58,548 nucleotides of DNA from contig JAMOUT010000018.1 of assembly GCA_027061995.1 (NCBI GenBank), positions 1 to 58,548 of the forward strand, written 5' to 3'. This document shows, piece by piece, positions 15,948 through 58,548 of this stretch. The position numbers and the translations under genes are program-made. A model generated the notes under the pieces. That model saw nothing but the letters and a program-made list of their open reading frames with translations, was not told where the DNA came from and made no database searches. Source of the stretch: Candidatus Aminicenantota bacterium (GTDB lineage: Bacteria > Acidobacteriota > Aminicenantia > JAMOAD01). How positions within the stretch are numbered: position 1 is the stretch's first letter; every line of letters starts with the position of its first letter.

Positions 15948-16688
15948 TTATTGAGAAAAGAGCGCTAATAACTCTTTTACTCTGCTATCATCGGGATTAA
16001 TGTGAAGAGCTTTTTGAAGAACGGATTTTGCCTCTTTTATCTTATGAGTCATATAATAAGCATAACCGAGATGATAAAAAAGCGTTGCATGATTAGGGTC
16101 TATACTCTCCATCTTTTTCAGATATTCGATTGCCTCTTCATATTTACCGATTGCATTTAAAGCTATCCCGAGATGATAATTAGCTATGGCTGACTGGGGA
16201 TTTTTAATAAGTAAAGTCTTAAAGCTTTCTATGGATTTCTCATATTTTCCCATATGATAATAAACAACACCAAGCCAGTAATGAGCCATTGAAAAACTCT
16301 CGTTTAATTCAAGTGTTTTTTCAAAACTTTCAACAGCCTCCTCTAACATTCCAGCCCTGTAGTATGAGACTGCAAGAGCATAATGAAGGTCGGCGAAATC
16401 AGGATTATAATTCAAAGCTTTTCTAAAATGATAGATAGCTTTTGTCAATATCCCCATAAGATAATAACTGTCTCCGAGACTTTTATGTATATATTCGTTT
16501 TTCTCGTATTGAAGAGCTTTTTCACAATATGCAACAGCATCTTTTAGTTTGCCTTTGTTCTTTAAATCTCTGGATTTTCTAATGTAATAAATAGCTTTAT
16601 CCTCTGTTAGAGGAAATCCGCAAAAGGGACAATATTTCCAACCTACGGCAATCTCTTTTCCGCAATTAGGGCATAGATTTGACATCAA
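15948..16688 (-). CDS. Zinc-ribbon TPR protein
   Basis: A 246-aa protein with an N-terminal zinc ribbon (C6-x2-C9 and C20-x2-C23 in LCPNCGKEIAVGWKYCPFCGFPL) followed by six or so tetratricopeptide repeats covering about 27-240, with consensus pieces such as ADLHYALAVSYYRAGMLEEAVESFEKTL. No signal peptide; probably a cytoplasmic scaffold. Its ribbon is nearly identical to the separate 50-aa protein encoded just upstream at 16730-16882, so one was probably copied from the other. It sits inside the TCA operon; a link to that pathway is by position only. Confidence 0.85.
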   Translation of the reverse strand: MMSNLCPNCGKEIAVGWKYCPFCGFPLTEDKAIYYIRKSRDLKNKGKLKDAVAYCEKALQYEKNEYIHKSLGDSYYLMGILTKAIYHFRKALNYNPDFADLHYALAVSYYRAGMLEEAVESFEKTLELNESFSMAHYWLGVVYYHMGKYEKSIESFKTLLIKNPQSAIANYHLGIALNAIGKYEEAIEYLKKMESIDPNHATLFYHLGYAYYMTHKIKEAKSVLQKALHINPDDSRVKELLALFSQ

Positions 16689-16729
16689 TACCTCCTTATA
16701 TCTATTTTACAATTAATTCTTAATTATAT

Positions 16730-16882
16730 CTATTTATCTTTGTCTTCTTTTACCTCTTTTCCCCCTTTTTCAACGCTCTTGCTTTTAATTGTTTCAGTTA
16801 AAGGAAACCCGCAAAACGGACAATATTTCCATCCTTCAAAAACATCTTTTCCGCAATTAGGACAAATTAATTCAGTTGGCAT
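16730..16882 (-). CDS. 50-aa zinc-ribbon microprotein
   Basis: A short gene: ATG at 16880-16882, stop TAG at 16730-16732, preceded by AAGGAGG. The protein starts MPTELICPNCGKDVFEGWKYC and has two CxxC pairs (CPNC, CPFC) making one zinc ribbon, then a charged KSKSVEKGGKEVKEDKDK tail. It shares CPNCGK, GWKYCPFCGFPLTE with the TPR protein that follows 41 bases downstream. Located 80 bases after icd in the same direction, it is probably cotranscribed with the TCA genes. Function unknown; small ribbons of this type often mediate protein or RNA contacts. Confidence 0.8.
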   Translation of the reverse strand: MPTELICPNCGKDVFEGWKYCPFCGFPLTETIKSKSVEKGGKEVKEDKDK

Positions 16883-16962
16883 TTATAACCTCCTTATCTT
16901 GTAATTTAAAATTATAGCTCTTTCCCGCAAAAAAATCATCTTTTTTTTATTTTTTAATCTTT

Positions 16963-53950: not shown

Positions 53951-54723
53951 GTTTTATAAAAGGATTAAAAGAGATATATCTTTTATTTATAAAGATAGGG
54001 ATAAGAAAAAAAAGAACAATCCTGTTAACACTGTTGAGTTTTACCCCTGTTTTATTATTATTAATAGCCAAGATCATAGAGATTACAAAACCCCATTCAA
54101 GTATCTCCGCTTCTCATCTGTATTCAAATATAATCGTAGCTTTTTATATCCAATTTATAATAGGGATTCTGTCTATTTTCTATGGTTCATCGGTAATAGA
54201 TGAAGAGGTTGAGGGTAAAACTCTGATTTATTTATTTTCCAAACCTATTTCAAAATCTTCGATTATTCTCGGCAAATTTTTATCTTATATATCAATAATT
54301 GTCATAACAATAATGTCCGGATTGATAATATCTTTTATTATCGCTTATATTAACGCATATATCAGTCATAAGATAATTATTATGTTTTTTAAATATATGA
54401 TTGCATCATTTTTCGCCATTATGGCTTATACATCCCTTTTTACAATGTTGGCGACATTTTTTAAAAGAACAGCTATAGTCGGACTATTATTCATATTCGG
54501 TTGGGAATCCATCATAAATTATATGCCGGGGAAAACTCAAAAATTAACCATAATTCATTATGTTAAATCTCTGATTCCTCAAACAGCGGTAAATAGGAAT
54601 TTCCTGTTATTTCATCTTGAACCTTCCTCAGCTCTAACCGCTATTATTGTTCTGTCTCTAATATCAATCATCTCGTTAATCATAGGAATTTGGGTTTTTA
54701 AGTATAAGGAATATATAATATAG
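53947..54723 (+). CDS. ABC-2 type permease (second)
   Basis: A 258-aa protein with about six hydrophobic spans. IGILSIFYGSSVIDEEVEGKTLIYLFSKPISKSSIILGKFLSYI is the ABC-2 permease signature. With the first three genes it forms two ATPase/permease pairs in one operon, likely a heteromeric exporter for lipid, polysaccharide or protein; the cargo is not shown by the sequence. Confidence 0.85.
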   Translation: MSFIKGLKEIYLLFIKIGIRKKRTILLTLLSFTPVLLLLIAKIIEITKPHSSISASHLYSNIIVAFYIQFIIGILSIFYGSSVIDEEVEGKTLIYLFSKPISKSSIILGKFLSYISIIVITIMSGLIISFIIAYINAYISHKIIIMFFKYMIASFFAIMAYTSLFTMLATFFKRTAIVGLLFIFGWESIINYMPGKTQKLTIIHYVKSLIPQTAVNRNFLLFHLEPSSALTAIIVLSLISIISLIIGIWVFKYKEYII

Positions 54724-54733
54724 TGATTTATAC

Positions 54734-54901
54734 AGAGTTGTGGAATTAGAAGGGTTAATGATTAATTAAAGGATTATTTTCAATAACATCGGAAATATCG
54801 GAAAAAAATATCAAAAAACAGAAAGTCTTAAAAAATAAAATATTTGACAAAAAGGGTGCTATTTTTTATATTAAAATATTATCCGAAAAGGGGAGGAAAA
54901 T
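54734..54901 (+). repeat. Direct repeat copy 1 (~168 bp), upstream of glmS
   Basis: This stretch is almost the same as 58047-58216: by hand alignment about nine mismatches and two single-base gaps. It includes GGGTTAATGATTAATTAAAGG, two ATCGGAA units, a TTGACA/TATATT promoter and GGGGAGG. In this copy the ribosome site is followed by ATATTT rather than ATG, so it no longer begins a reading frame. Confidence 0.9.
54844..54872 (+). promoter_or_regulatory. Promoter in repeat copy 1, ahead of glmS
   Basis: TTGACA (54844-54849) and TATATT (54867-54872), 17-bp spacing. It probably drives glmS and the chitinase gene with a leader of roughly 165 bases. That leader (54880-55043) shows no glmS ribozyme core. 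Confidence 0.6.
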
Positions 54902-55043
54902 ATTTATTGATATTAAAATTGATGTAAGAATAATAAACTAAAATATTAAATAGCGAAAAATTTAAAAACCATAAAAAAAGTTGAGGATATTCGTTGTTTC
55001 TGATAAGATATATCATCGATTTAATTAATAAAAGGAGAATCTA

Positions 55044-56846
55044 ATGTGCGGAATATTCGGTATTCAATTTTCGGAAGAAAAAAAAGATTTGGGAAAGATT
55101 CTAAAAAAAGCTGCTGAAAAACTTACATACAGAGGGTATGATTCTGTAGGTTTTGCCACAATAGGCGGGGATAATAAAATCGATCTTAGAAAAGATAAAG
55201 GGAAAATCGACAAAGTTTATACCGAGCTTAAAATGGAAGAGATGAAAGGTTCAAGAGGGATTATTCAGCTCAGATGGGCGACATTCGGTATCCCCTCAAA
55301 AGAGAATGCTCAACCCCATTTGGGATGTAAAGGGAATTTGGTATCAGCTCATAATGGTAATATCGTAAATACAACCGAATTGATAAAAGAACTTACGGAT
55401 AAAGGGCATATTTTTACGGGGGAAAATGATGGTGAGGCTCTCTGTCATCAGGTTGAAGATTGGACTGAAAAAGGGGATACTCTTGAGAAAGCGGTTATTA
55501 AGGCGAATAAAAAAATTGACGGACATTATGCTTGTGTTTGCACTATAAAGGATATCCCTTATATGGTGGCGGTAAAACAGGGGTCCTCACTCTTTCTCGG
55601 AAAAGGGGATGATTTTGTATGCGTATCTTCCGACCTTCCCTCGATTCTCGAATATACAAGGGAATACATCCCTTTGATGGATGGTGAATTTGTTGTTTTT
55701 GATGATAAAAAATATGAGATAAAGGATTTAATGACAGGTGATACAATAGAGAGAGAACCTATTAAATACGATGATGATATACATATAGCTGACAAAGGGG
55801 AGTTTCCCCACTATATGCTCAAAGAGATTTATGAGCAACCCTCCAATATAAAAGAGTTGCTGAATTTTATTCTTAAAAACAGTGAATATCAGGAGAATAT
55901 GAAAAATCTTTTTTCTCATGAAAGGGTGTTTATTGTCGGTGCGGGTTCATCCTATAATGCTTCTGTTACAGGCTCTTTTTATCTGCAAAATCTTATTAAT
56001 AAAACTGTTATTGTATCCAATGCGGGTGAATTTATCCAAAGATGGGGTAAAGTTTTAAACAATGATGATGCTTTTCTCCTTATATCTCAAAGCGGTGAGA
56101 CAAAAGATGTTATGATAGTTCTTGATTTTCTTGAAAATAAAGGATATGAAAATATATTCTCAATGGTAAATGTAACAGGCTCAACCCTTCATATGAGGGT
56201 CCCCGAAAGATTCCCCATACTTTCCAATCTTGAAATAGGTGTGGCTGCAACAAAAACATTTATCAATCAGGTGGTAGCATTTCTAACTATGGCGGCTGTT
56301 TTGGGTAAAAGGGAAGATATATTAAAGGAGTTATCATCACTTTCGGAATATATTGAGGAATTTATAAAAAAATATGATTCGGAGACAAAAACTCTTGCGA
56401 AAAATCTTTTAAATCATTCCGCTTTTTATTTTCTCGGATACGGTATCTCATACGGCGGAGTTATAGAAGGTGCCTTAAAAGTAAAGGAGCTTGCTTATAT
56501 CCCCGGAGAGGGATTTTATTCGTCCGAATTCAAACACGGGCCTCTTGCTCTCATATCCGAAGATCAACCCGTTGTTTTCCTCTCCTCAAACGAGGATTCA
56601 CGAATAACGGTTTCTCATATAAATGAGATTAAAGTCAGAAAGGGAAAGATATATACGATTGCTCCCGAGAATGAAAAACTTAGAAAAGAATCGGATATTT
56701 TTTATCCGTTAAATTCGGATTTCTATTATTTTATCCCTATTTTCGGTGTTATATTTTTCCAACTTCTCGCATATCATATGGGTGTTTTAAAGGGGGAAAA
56801 TCCGGATACTCCGAGAAATTTATCAAAATCCATAACAGTGGACTGA
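55044..56846 (+). CDS. glmS: Glutamine-fructose-6-phosphate aminotransferase
   Basis: Makes glucosamine 6-phosphate from fructose 6-phosphate and glutamine. The 600-aa protein has the N-terminal nucleophile Cys2 (MCGIFGIQ), LRWATFGIP, AHNGNIVN and ENDGEALCH of the glutaminase domain, two SIS domains (GAGSSYNASVTG; ISQSGETKDV), EFKHGPLAL and the C-terminal Lys in NLSKSITVD. The RWAT motif reads QLRWATFG in place of HTRWATHG, a mild divergence. SD AAAAGGAG. Only 2 bases separate it from the chitinase gene, so the pair is an operon. Confidence 0.92.
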   Translation: MCGIFGIQFSEEKKDLGKILKKAAEKLTYRGYDSVGFATIGGDNKIDLRKDKGKIDKVYTELKMEEMKGSRGIIQLRWATFGIPSKENAQPHLGCKGNLVSAHNGNIVNTTELIKELTDKGHIFTGENDGEALCHQVEDWTEKGDTLEKAVIKANKKIDGHYACVCTIKDIPYMVAVKQGSSLFLGKGDDFVCVSSDLPSILEYTREYIPLMDGEFVVFDDKKYEIKDLMTGDTIEREPIKYDDDIHIADKGEFPHYMLKEIYEQPSNIKELLNFILKNSEYQENMKNLFSHERVFIVGAGSSYNASVTGSFYLQNLINKTVIVSNAGEFIQRWGKVLNNDDAFLLISQSGETKDVMIVLDFLENKGYENIFSMVNVTGSTLHMRVPERFPILSNLEIGVAATKTFINQVVAFLTMAAVLGKREDILKELSSLSEYIEEFIKKYDSETKTLAKNLLNHSAFYFLGYGISYGGVIEGALKVKELAYIPGEGFYSSEFKHGPLALISEDQPVVFLSSNEDSRITVSHINEIKVRKGKIYTIAPENEKLRKESDIFYPLNSDFYYFIPIFGVIFFQLLAYHMGVLKGENPDTPRNLSKSITVD

Positions 56847-56848
56847 AT

Positions 56849-58039
56849 ATGCTTAGATATTTTATTATATTAATTGGTTTTTTGATTTTGGGATTCTCAG
56901 GATGCAATAATGAGACTGATTCTTCCGTCTCATCTTATCAAGGCAGAATTATCTCATATATAAGGACATGGGAATTAAGAAAGGATAACGGAAAAAATAT
57001 ATTTTGGACGGCCGAGGATATTGACGGGGAGATGTTAACAGATTTGAATATAGCTTTTGCTATTATAAAAAACGGAGATGATTTGACAATCGAGAGTATG
57101 AATTGGGATGACGGTTTTTTTAATCTTTTTTCCGAGATTCAAAAACTTAAAGAGATATATCCTTTTCTCAGAGTGAATCTGTCGATAGGGGGATGGGGAG
57201 CGGACGGATTTTCCGATATGGCGGCGGATGGAGATCTAAGATCAGGATTTGTTGATAATGTTATGGAATGGGTTAAAAAACACGGATTTGATGGTATAGA
57301 TATAGATTGGGAGTATCCTGTTGACGGAGCGGATGGTATGATTAAATCTCGCCCCGAAGATAAAACCAATTTTACCCTCTTAATGAAAGAGTTGAAAGAG
57401 GCTCTCGATGCTTTATCGAATGAAAACGGAAAAACATACACACTCTCTTTTGCGGCGGCAGCATCTTCAGATTATCTTAATTGGATTGAGCCGAAAAAAC
57501 TATCGGATATTGTTGATTATGTGAATCTCATGACTTATGATTTTTACGGAGAATGGTCGAATACAACCGGGCATCACTCGAATCTGTATAATAGTGATAT
57601 TAAACCGAGTGCTCAGAGCGGGGATAAAGCTGTCAGAGATTTTATCACAGCGGGATTTTCACCGAATCAAATCGTATTGGGCATCCCTTTTTTCGGAAAG
57701 GGTTGGAGGGGAGTTAATAACAAAAATAACGGGTTGTATCAAAGGTTTACGGCTGTATATAATTATAAGGATATGGGGTTTGATGATATTGAAAAACTGA
57801 TTGTTTCCGATAATCTTAAAGAGTATTGGGATGATAGTGCAAAAGCACCATATCTGTATAACGGAGATATCTGGATATCTTATGATAATGAGCAATCGGT
57901 GGAAATTAAAACGGATTATATTAAAAAGAAAAATCTCGGAGGGATAATGATTTGGGAATACTCCCATGATTTTTCCAAAAAACTTTTAACCGTGATTTAT
58001 CAAAATATCAAAAAGAAAACAATCGTAAAAAAGAGATAA
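56849..58039 (+). CDS. Lipoprotein chitinase-like GH18 enzyme
   Basis: A 396-aa GH18 TIM-barrel protein. The active-site motif FDGIDIDWEYP has D148, D151, D153 and the acid E155, all intact; VNLSIGGWG and VNLMTYDFYGEW also match, as does MIWEYSHD at the end. Residues 1-20 form a signal peptide with FSGC as a possible lipobox (Cys20 or so), implying membrane anchoring. It hydrolyses chitin or related GlcNAc polymers. Directly behind glmS, which links amino-sugar supply and chitin use. Confidence 0.9.
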   Translation: MLRYFIILIGFLILGFSGCNNETDSSVSSYQGRIISYIRTWELRKDNGKNIFWTAEDIDGEMLTDLNIAFAIIKNGDDLTIESMNWDDGFFNLFSEIQKLKEIYPFLRVNLSIGGWGADGFSDMAADGDLRSGFVDNVMEWVKKHGFDGIDIDWEYPVDGADGMIKSRPEDKTNFTLLMKELKEALDALSNENGKTYTLSFAAAASSDYLNWIEPKKLSDIVDYVNLMTYDFYGEWSNTTGHHSNLYNSDIKPSAQSGDKAVRDFITAGFSPNQIVLGIPFFGKGWRGVNNKNNGLYQRFTAVYNYKDMGFDDIEKLIVSDNLKEYWDDSAKAPYLYNGDIWISYDNEQSVEIKTDYIKKKNLGGIMIWEYSHDFSKKLLTVIYQNIKKKTIVKKR

Positions 58040-58046
58040 AAGGGGT

Positions 58047-58216
58047 AGAGCTGTAGGATTAGAAGGGTTAATGATTAATTAAAGGATTATTTTAAATAAC
58101 ATCGGAAAATATCGGAAAAAAATATCAAAAAACAGAAAGTCTTAAAAAACAAAATAATTTGACAAAAATGGTGGTATTTTTTATATTAAAATATTGTCCG
58201 AAAAGGGGAGGAAAAT
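58047..58216 (+). repeat. Direct repeat copy 2 (~170 bp), downstream of chitinase gene
   Basis: Second copy of the repeat at 54734-54901, at about 93 percent identity by eye. Here the promoter and GGGGAGG site are followed at once by ATG (58215-58217). Copies 1 and 2 bracket glmS and the GH18 gene in direct orientation. Confidence 0.9.
58159..58187 (+). promoter_or_regulatory. Promoter in repeat copy 2
   Basis: TTGACA (58159-58164) and TATATT (58182-58187), 17-bp spacing, identical in layout to the copy-1 promoter. It would transcribe the hairpin-rich segment that follows. Confidence 0.6.
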
Positions 58217-58346
58217 GAATGCTGAATTATTCAAAGCCTCGAAGCCAAAAGCCAAGAGCATCGAAGCTCTTTCAAAACCGTGCTGTGCAAAGCCCTTCAA
58301 TCCTTTGCTTTTTATAAAGAGCAAAGAGTTGAGGAGCAAGAGCTGA
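58215..58346 (+). CDS. Possible 43-aa peptide ORF
   Basis: ATG at 58215 follows GGGGAGG with 4-base spacing, and the frame runs to TGA at 58344-58346. The peptide is Lys/Ser/Ala-rich with a CC pair (MNAELFKASKPKAKSIEALS then KPCCAKPF). The codons lie in an unusually G+C-rich, inverted-repeat-rich segment, so this may be a chance frame within a structured RNA; a leader peptide is an alternative. Confidence 0.35.
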   Translation: MNAELFKASKPKAKSIEALSKPCCAKPFNPLLFIKSKELRSKS

Positions 58347-58405
58347 GAGCTTTGATAGCTTTATGCCCAAGAAGCTGCCCGAAACGATTTTAGCTTCGAG
58401 GCTTT
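58233..58405 (+). ncRNA. Candidate structured RNA with nested hairpins
   Basis: AAAGCCTCGAAGC (58233-58245) pairs perfectly with GCTTCGAGGCTTT (58393-58405), extended inward by four A-T pairs after one mismatch. Inside are a 6-bp hairpin AAGAGC-ATCGAA-GCTCTT (58254-58271) and a hairpin CTTTGCTTTT with AAAGAGCAAAG (58303-58326). G+C is visibly higher than in neighbours. It follows a promoter. It could be a small RNA, a leader element or the remnant of a mobile element end; no known family is recognised. Confidence 0.4.
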
Positions 58406-58517
58406 ATGCTTTAAGCTTTATAATGAGTTGTCCTAAAAAAGGTTTACAAAAAAATATGCTAAAAGCTAAAGAAAAAATGGTATCATTAAGAGAGAAAAGA
58501 AAAAAGGAGACGCGAGG

Positions 58518-58548
58518 ATGAGTATGAGGAAGAGAATAATAAAAAGAT
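58518..58548 (+). CDS. Start of an unidentified gene (3' truncated by window edge)
   Basis: AAAAAGGAG is followed after eight bases by ATG and the frame MSMRKRIIKR, open to the window end. Too short to identify. It stands about 110 bases after the structured segment. Confidence 0.5.
   Translation, partial: MSMRKRIIKR

Follow-up and report, generated by a model that had tools for sequence, protein, structure and literature searches.

Direct repeats with a promoter-like core around a glmS-GH18 gene pair in a draft genome of a Candidatus Aminicenantota bacterium

Results and discussion

The window analysed here, 58,548 bp long, is contig C18 in its entirety, one of the 104 contigs of a 2.36-Mb draft genome (G000). 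Near the 3′ end of the window a glmS gene and a chitinase-like gene of family GH18 are bracketed by two direct repeats, R1 and R2. In our reading, R1 and R2 probably belong to a family of intergenic repeats that is dispersed and non-autonomous and carries a portable promoter, and the bracketing of the gene pair would have followed incidentally from the copying of repeats and from rearrangement nearby, and would not mark a mobile cassette. The following features, all on the plus strand, were assigned:

54734-54901, plus strand: repeat copy R1, between glmS and the preceding ABC-2 permease gene, whose stop codon is at 54723; an upstream part of about 95 bp (U) and a promoter/RBS core (P)
54844-54872, plus strand: promoter-like sequence TTGACA-17-TATATT of R1
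54890-54896, plus strand: ribosome-site-like motif GGGGAGG of R1, with no ATG at the usual spacing; it looks orphaned
55044-56846, plus strand: glmS, 600 aa, isomerizing glutamine-fructose-6-phosphate transaminase (NCBIfam TIGR01135, 487 bits)
56849-58039, plus strand: GH18 chitinase-like predicted lipoprotein, 396 aa (Pfam PF00704, E=4e-81), with a DxxDxDxE motif (DGIDIDWE)
58047-58216, plus strand: repeat copy R2 (U and P), downstream of the GH18 gene
58159-58187, plus strand: promoter-like sequence TTGACA-17-TATATT of R2
58217-58423, plus strand: leader-like and mosaic region made of short repeats that recur across the genome
58424-58548, plus strand: left end of an IS3-family element, truncated where the contig stops

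The two repeat copies in the window

Local alignment of R1 with R2 ended exactly at the coordinates listed above; of its 170 columns, 160 were identical (94.1%), 8 were mismatched and 2 were one-base gaps, and the longest uninterrupted match spanned 43 bp. The alignment scored 140, while none of 300 mononucleotide shuffles exceeded 17, and the pair was the stronger of only two off-diagonal self-matches in the window (BLASTN E=4e-68); the other, a weaker direct repeat (16603-16715 versus 16794-16914), had 75% identity over 121 columns. Both copies are intergenic, begin about 10 bp or less past the stop codon of the preceding gene (permease or GH18) and end just past GGGGAGGAAAAT, and the G+C content of R1 is 24% versus 33% for the window. 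The initial annotation was accurate in describing near-identical, non-coding and A+T-rich repeats, each with a TTGACA/TATATT promoter and a GGGGAGG motif, that enclose exactly glmS and the GH18 gene, which are 2 bp apart, and no other gene. Neither terminal inverted repeats nor a target duplication were found around the 168-bp repeat with a repeat finder and by reading of its borders; the lack of such a transposition signature counts against the preferred reading.

Among the best 40 of the 141-162 candidates scored in the genome, the upstream part of about 95 bp was present in R1 and R2 only. Since this private stretch is common to both, one window copy was probably derived from the other, or both from a single source, later than the rest of the family.

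Dispersed copies of the promoter core

When the genome was searched with R1, the last 73-81 bp recurred at contigs C98, C49, C47 and C22 (best 40 of 141-162 candidates), so that at least 6 copies of the core, 83-94% identical to R1 over the matched part, lie on five contigs. At least 4 of these copies, of about 75 bp, occupy unrelated loci without the cassette, which in part is what the initial annotation had named as evidence against its own reading. For each of the four copies outside the window a contig end is no more than 320 bp away, and because the repeats concentrate near contig ends, copy numbers in this genome are probably underestimated; the six visible copies are few for a mobile family, and copies at contig ends may have been lost.

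The core was also found ahead of several genes in G003, which belongs to a different genus of the same family and is one of the relatives compared (G001-G004). Matches to it were seen in 4 of 142 genomes of the class, two of them weak and with cross-binning between G000 and G003 possible. Three contig-end segments from the two genera (G000:C22:1-127, G003:C47:1-127 and G003:C3:4196-4322) matched perfectly over exactly 127 bp, which suggests a k-mer overlap and a single shared assembly for G000 and G003; some small contigs may consequently have been misbinned. This 127-bp match is absent from the G003 copies in C87 and C180.

Each copy whose downstream side was assembled points toward a gene on the same strand, namely glmS for R1, orfA of the IS3-family element for R2, a DUF6150 gene for the copy in C49, and the genes that follow five G003 copies. 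As these genes are non-homologous (glmS, IS3 orfA, the DUF6150 gene, and secreted or RHS-like genes in G003), duplication of genes does not explain the copies. In G003 (C3, C47, C87 and C180) the core stands ahead of several secreted-looking or RHS-core-like genes, the RHS likeness being judged by eye; three of these proteins had no Pfam match.

Sequence constraint in the core

The core looks like a sigma-70-type promoter followed by a Shine-Dalgarno sequence. Eight complete copies aligned on the -10 hexamer had in common TTGAC(A/G), a spacer of exactly 17 bp in every copy, TATATT and AAAATATT. Of the 20 columns formed by the two hexamers and the 8 bp that follow the -10, only 1 was variable, versus 9 of 17 in the spacer (Fisher p=0.002, a guide only, as the copies are related). 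Such a distribution, variable at positions that a promoter can spare and constant at the others, is the best evidence in the sequence that this module works as a promoter or did so until recently. As a point against it, promoter-like sites were only slightly commoner here than in shuffled sequences (23 versus 15.7, sd 4.3).

Most copies have a start codon after the ribosome-binding site, and with it a short reading frame built from repeats; a short leader reading frame follows the core in G003 contigs C3 and C47, and in C3 it overlaps the start of the next gene. R1 is without the start codon present in the other copies and continues into the 142 bp preceding glmS, and for this reason it can be considered for glmS only as an extra promoter, a putative role next to a promoter that glmS may have of its own. 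By the proposed mechanism, the core of about 75-80 bp would be the conserved part and serve as a portable promoter, R1 would add transcription to glmS-GH18 via a leader of about 165 nt, and R2 would transcribe outward from GH18 into the mosaic of repeats, at whose far end the IS3-family element now lies.

The mosaic and the IS3-family element beyond R2

From the end of R2 to the contig end there are 332 bp. This stretch (58217-58548), used as a query, gave 62 matches in the genome, and 17 of the 30 best mosaic matches, the query included, were located less than 500 bp from a contig end (hand count), a zone that covers about 4% of the assembly. The IS3-family element on C69 (minus strand) is about 1,398 bp long, its inverted ends match at 20 of 28 positions, and it contains orfA (HTH_Tnp_1) and orfB (rve). 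Additional copies have their ends at the starts of C26, C24 and C72, indicating that this insertion sequence breaks the assembly. Comparison of target-site duplications, by which the sequence past the element might be placed, gave no clear match in the flanks of C69, C24 and C72.

At the other end of the window, positions 3-458 encode the C-terminus of a PD-(D/E)XK nuclease (PF08011) cut by the window start. The copy at G000:C16:24167-24610 belongs to a full AAA-ATPase_like plus PDDEXK_9 protein with dispersed repeats on either side in opposite orientation, and G000:C5:15951-16331 is a further location listed with this nuclease. The 5′-end ATPase/PD-DEXK gene was considered as the gene behind R2 and ruled out, since C69 shows that the 3′ end is the IS3-family element.

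Gene order in relatives

The window copy is the sole true GlmS found in the assembly, the other match (C49) being 31% identical and N-terminal only; the nearest homologs of the upstream ABC-2 permease are 42% identical. The glmS genes of G003 and G002 are 78% and 57% identical to that of the window, respectively; neither has the same neighbours, and in both the GH18 gene is absent beside glmS. A scan of public contigs with a single GlmS sequence as the query returned no matches, and the best matches in a scan with a three-sequence alignment came from named Acidobacteriota/Aminicenantes relatives, including Candidatus Aminicenantes MAGs. At the 13 best public glmS loci (L139-L151, of which L139 apparently equals G002), GH18 was absent beside glmS within the DNA examined.

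The GH18 gene is located 2-5 bp behind accA in G001 (C45) and G003 (C128), and in G004 (C242) the copy behind accA is a pseudogene broken by stops. In G000 itself, accA (C98) lies in the same seven-gene order, followed by a repeat array including a copy of the core, and GH18 is absent there. In a tree of five GH18 sequences, G000, G001 and G003 formed one group, separate from the sequences of two outgroup genomes, which is what a native gene that had changed its place would show; the branching order within the trio was not resolved. Comparison of gene order, which the initial annotation had proposed, showed glmS and GH18 to be unlinked in the relatives. Because of this, of the position of GH18 after accA there and of the repeat copy at accA in G000, glmS and GH18 were probably brought together by a rearrangement specific to this lineage, in which GH18 was probably relocated from accA to behind glmS, the reverse direction of change being possible. 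There is no repeat at the glmS-GH18 junction, so that this step is not explainable by simple recombination between repeats.

Alternative explanations

The initial annotation had suggested that the arrangement arose by insertion or duplication of a cassette. Its promoter reading and the duplication of a module do hold. Entry of glmS-GH18 as one unit, for instance as a circle integrated through homologous recombination with a repeat already present, or through segmental duplication, leaving direct repeats on both sides, is nevertheless unlikely in our view. It would account for the exact bracketing of the pair by repeats that have a private 95-bp part in common, for the different neighbours of glmS in both relatives that have a close copy, and for the lack of GH18 at the site behind accA. 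On the other hand, no empty site or donor was found; the genes look native, with a housekeeping glmS that has an ortholog in G003 and a GH18 that groups with the family's own copies; and an identity of 94% with exact runs of at most 43 bp does not suggest a recent event. That the only glmS found lies inside, that the two genes are unlinked in relatives, and that GH18 follows accA there while the accA site of G000 has the repeat array instead, also speaks against a mobile cassette. Excision, another proposal of that annotation, is unlikely as a programmed event because recombination between R1 and R2, though possible in principle, would delete this only glmS.

Two other explanations are far less probable. 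A misjoin at the repeat during assembly could be suspected in a draft of 104 contigs with a repeat-rich 3′ flank and a contig break inside an insertion sequence, but we consider it very unlikely, as the longest exact run between R1 and R2 (43 bp) is far under the overlaps of about 125-127 bp seen between contig ends; besides, each copy has differences of its own, and unique genes anchor R1 as well as the left side of R2. Least probable of all, though close to the misjoin, is that R1 and R2 form a co-regulatory module for amino-sugar genes, as had also been proposed. The same promoter is indeed present in both, and GlmS and GH18 both relate to N-acetylglucosamine metabolism. However, R2 comes after GH18 and is directed outward, other copies are ahead of unrelated genes such as that for DUF6150, glmS and GH18 are unlinked in relatives, and no glmS ribozyme, riboswitch or other Rfam RNA was matched from the permease to the contig end up to E=1.

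We therefore retain dispersed copies of a promoter-bearing repeat as the preferred reading, with the gene pair bracketed as a by-product. A more far-reaching version, which we regard as doubtful, is that a promoter-plus-leader element without its own transposase moves between genera of uncultured Aminicenantia-like bacteria, favouring sites before secreted or RHS-like genes, and in G000 was placed before a probably essential gene for cell-wall precursors. If the preferred reading were confirmed, an uncultured lineage of Acidobacteriota (likely of the class Aminicenantia) would join those with promoters that apparently propagate as repeats, and there would be a case of a repeat-borne promoter ahead of a probably essential gene. 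It would also caution that a gene pair between direct repeats is not necessarily a cassette.

Comparison with known systems

Short repeats assumed to act as promoters are described as mobile promoters in PMC8049555, and PMC8049555 and PMC4596501 cite reports of putative mobile promoters by Matus-Garcia et al. 2012 and van Passel et al. 2014. According to PMC4596501, BrickBuilt, a MITE of Porphyromonas gingivalis, is proposed to act like a mobile promoter. The repeat described here is likewise, as MITEs such as BrickBuilt are, a non-coding dispersed repeat near genes, but around the 168-bp repeat no terminal inverted repeats or target duplications were seen. REP/REPIN-type repeats resemble the adjacent AAGCCTCGAAGC-type mosaic in being short, intergenic and dispersed, whereas the promoter core is not palindromic. 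The closest likeness is to putative mobile promoters, in that a near-identical promoter-bearing intergenic sequence is found at several unrelated loci of one genome; the difference is that the copies here lie within a larger mosaic of other repeats, and that their promoter activity and horizontal spread are putative. By the features that a sequence comparison can assess, this repeat family is probably to be counted among the putative mobile promoters.
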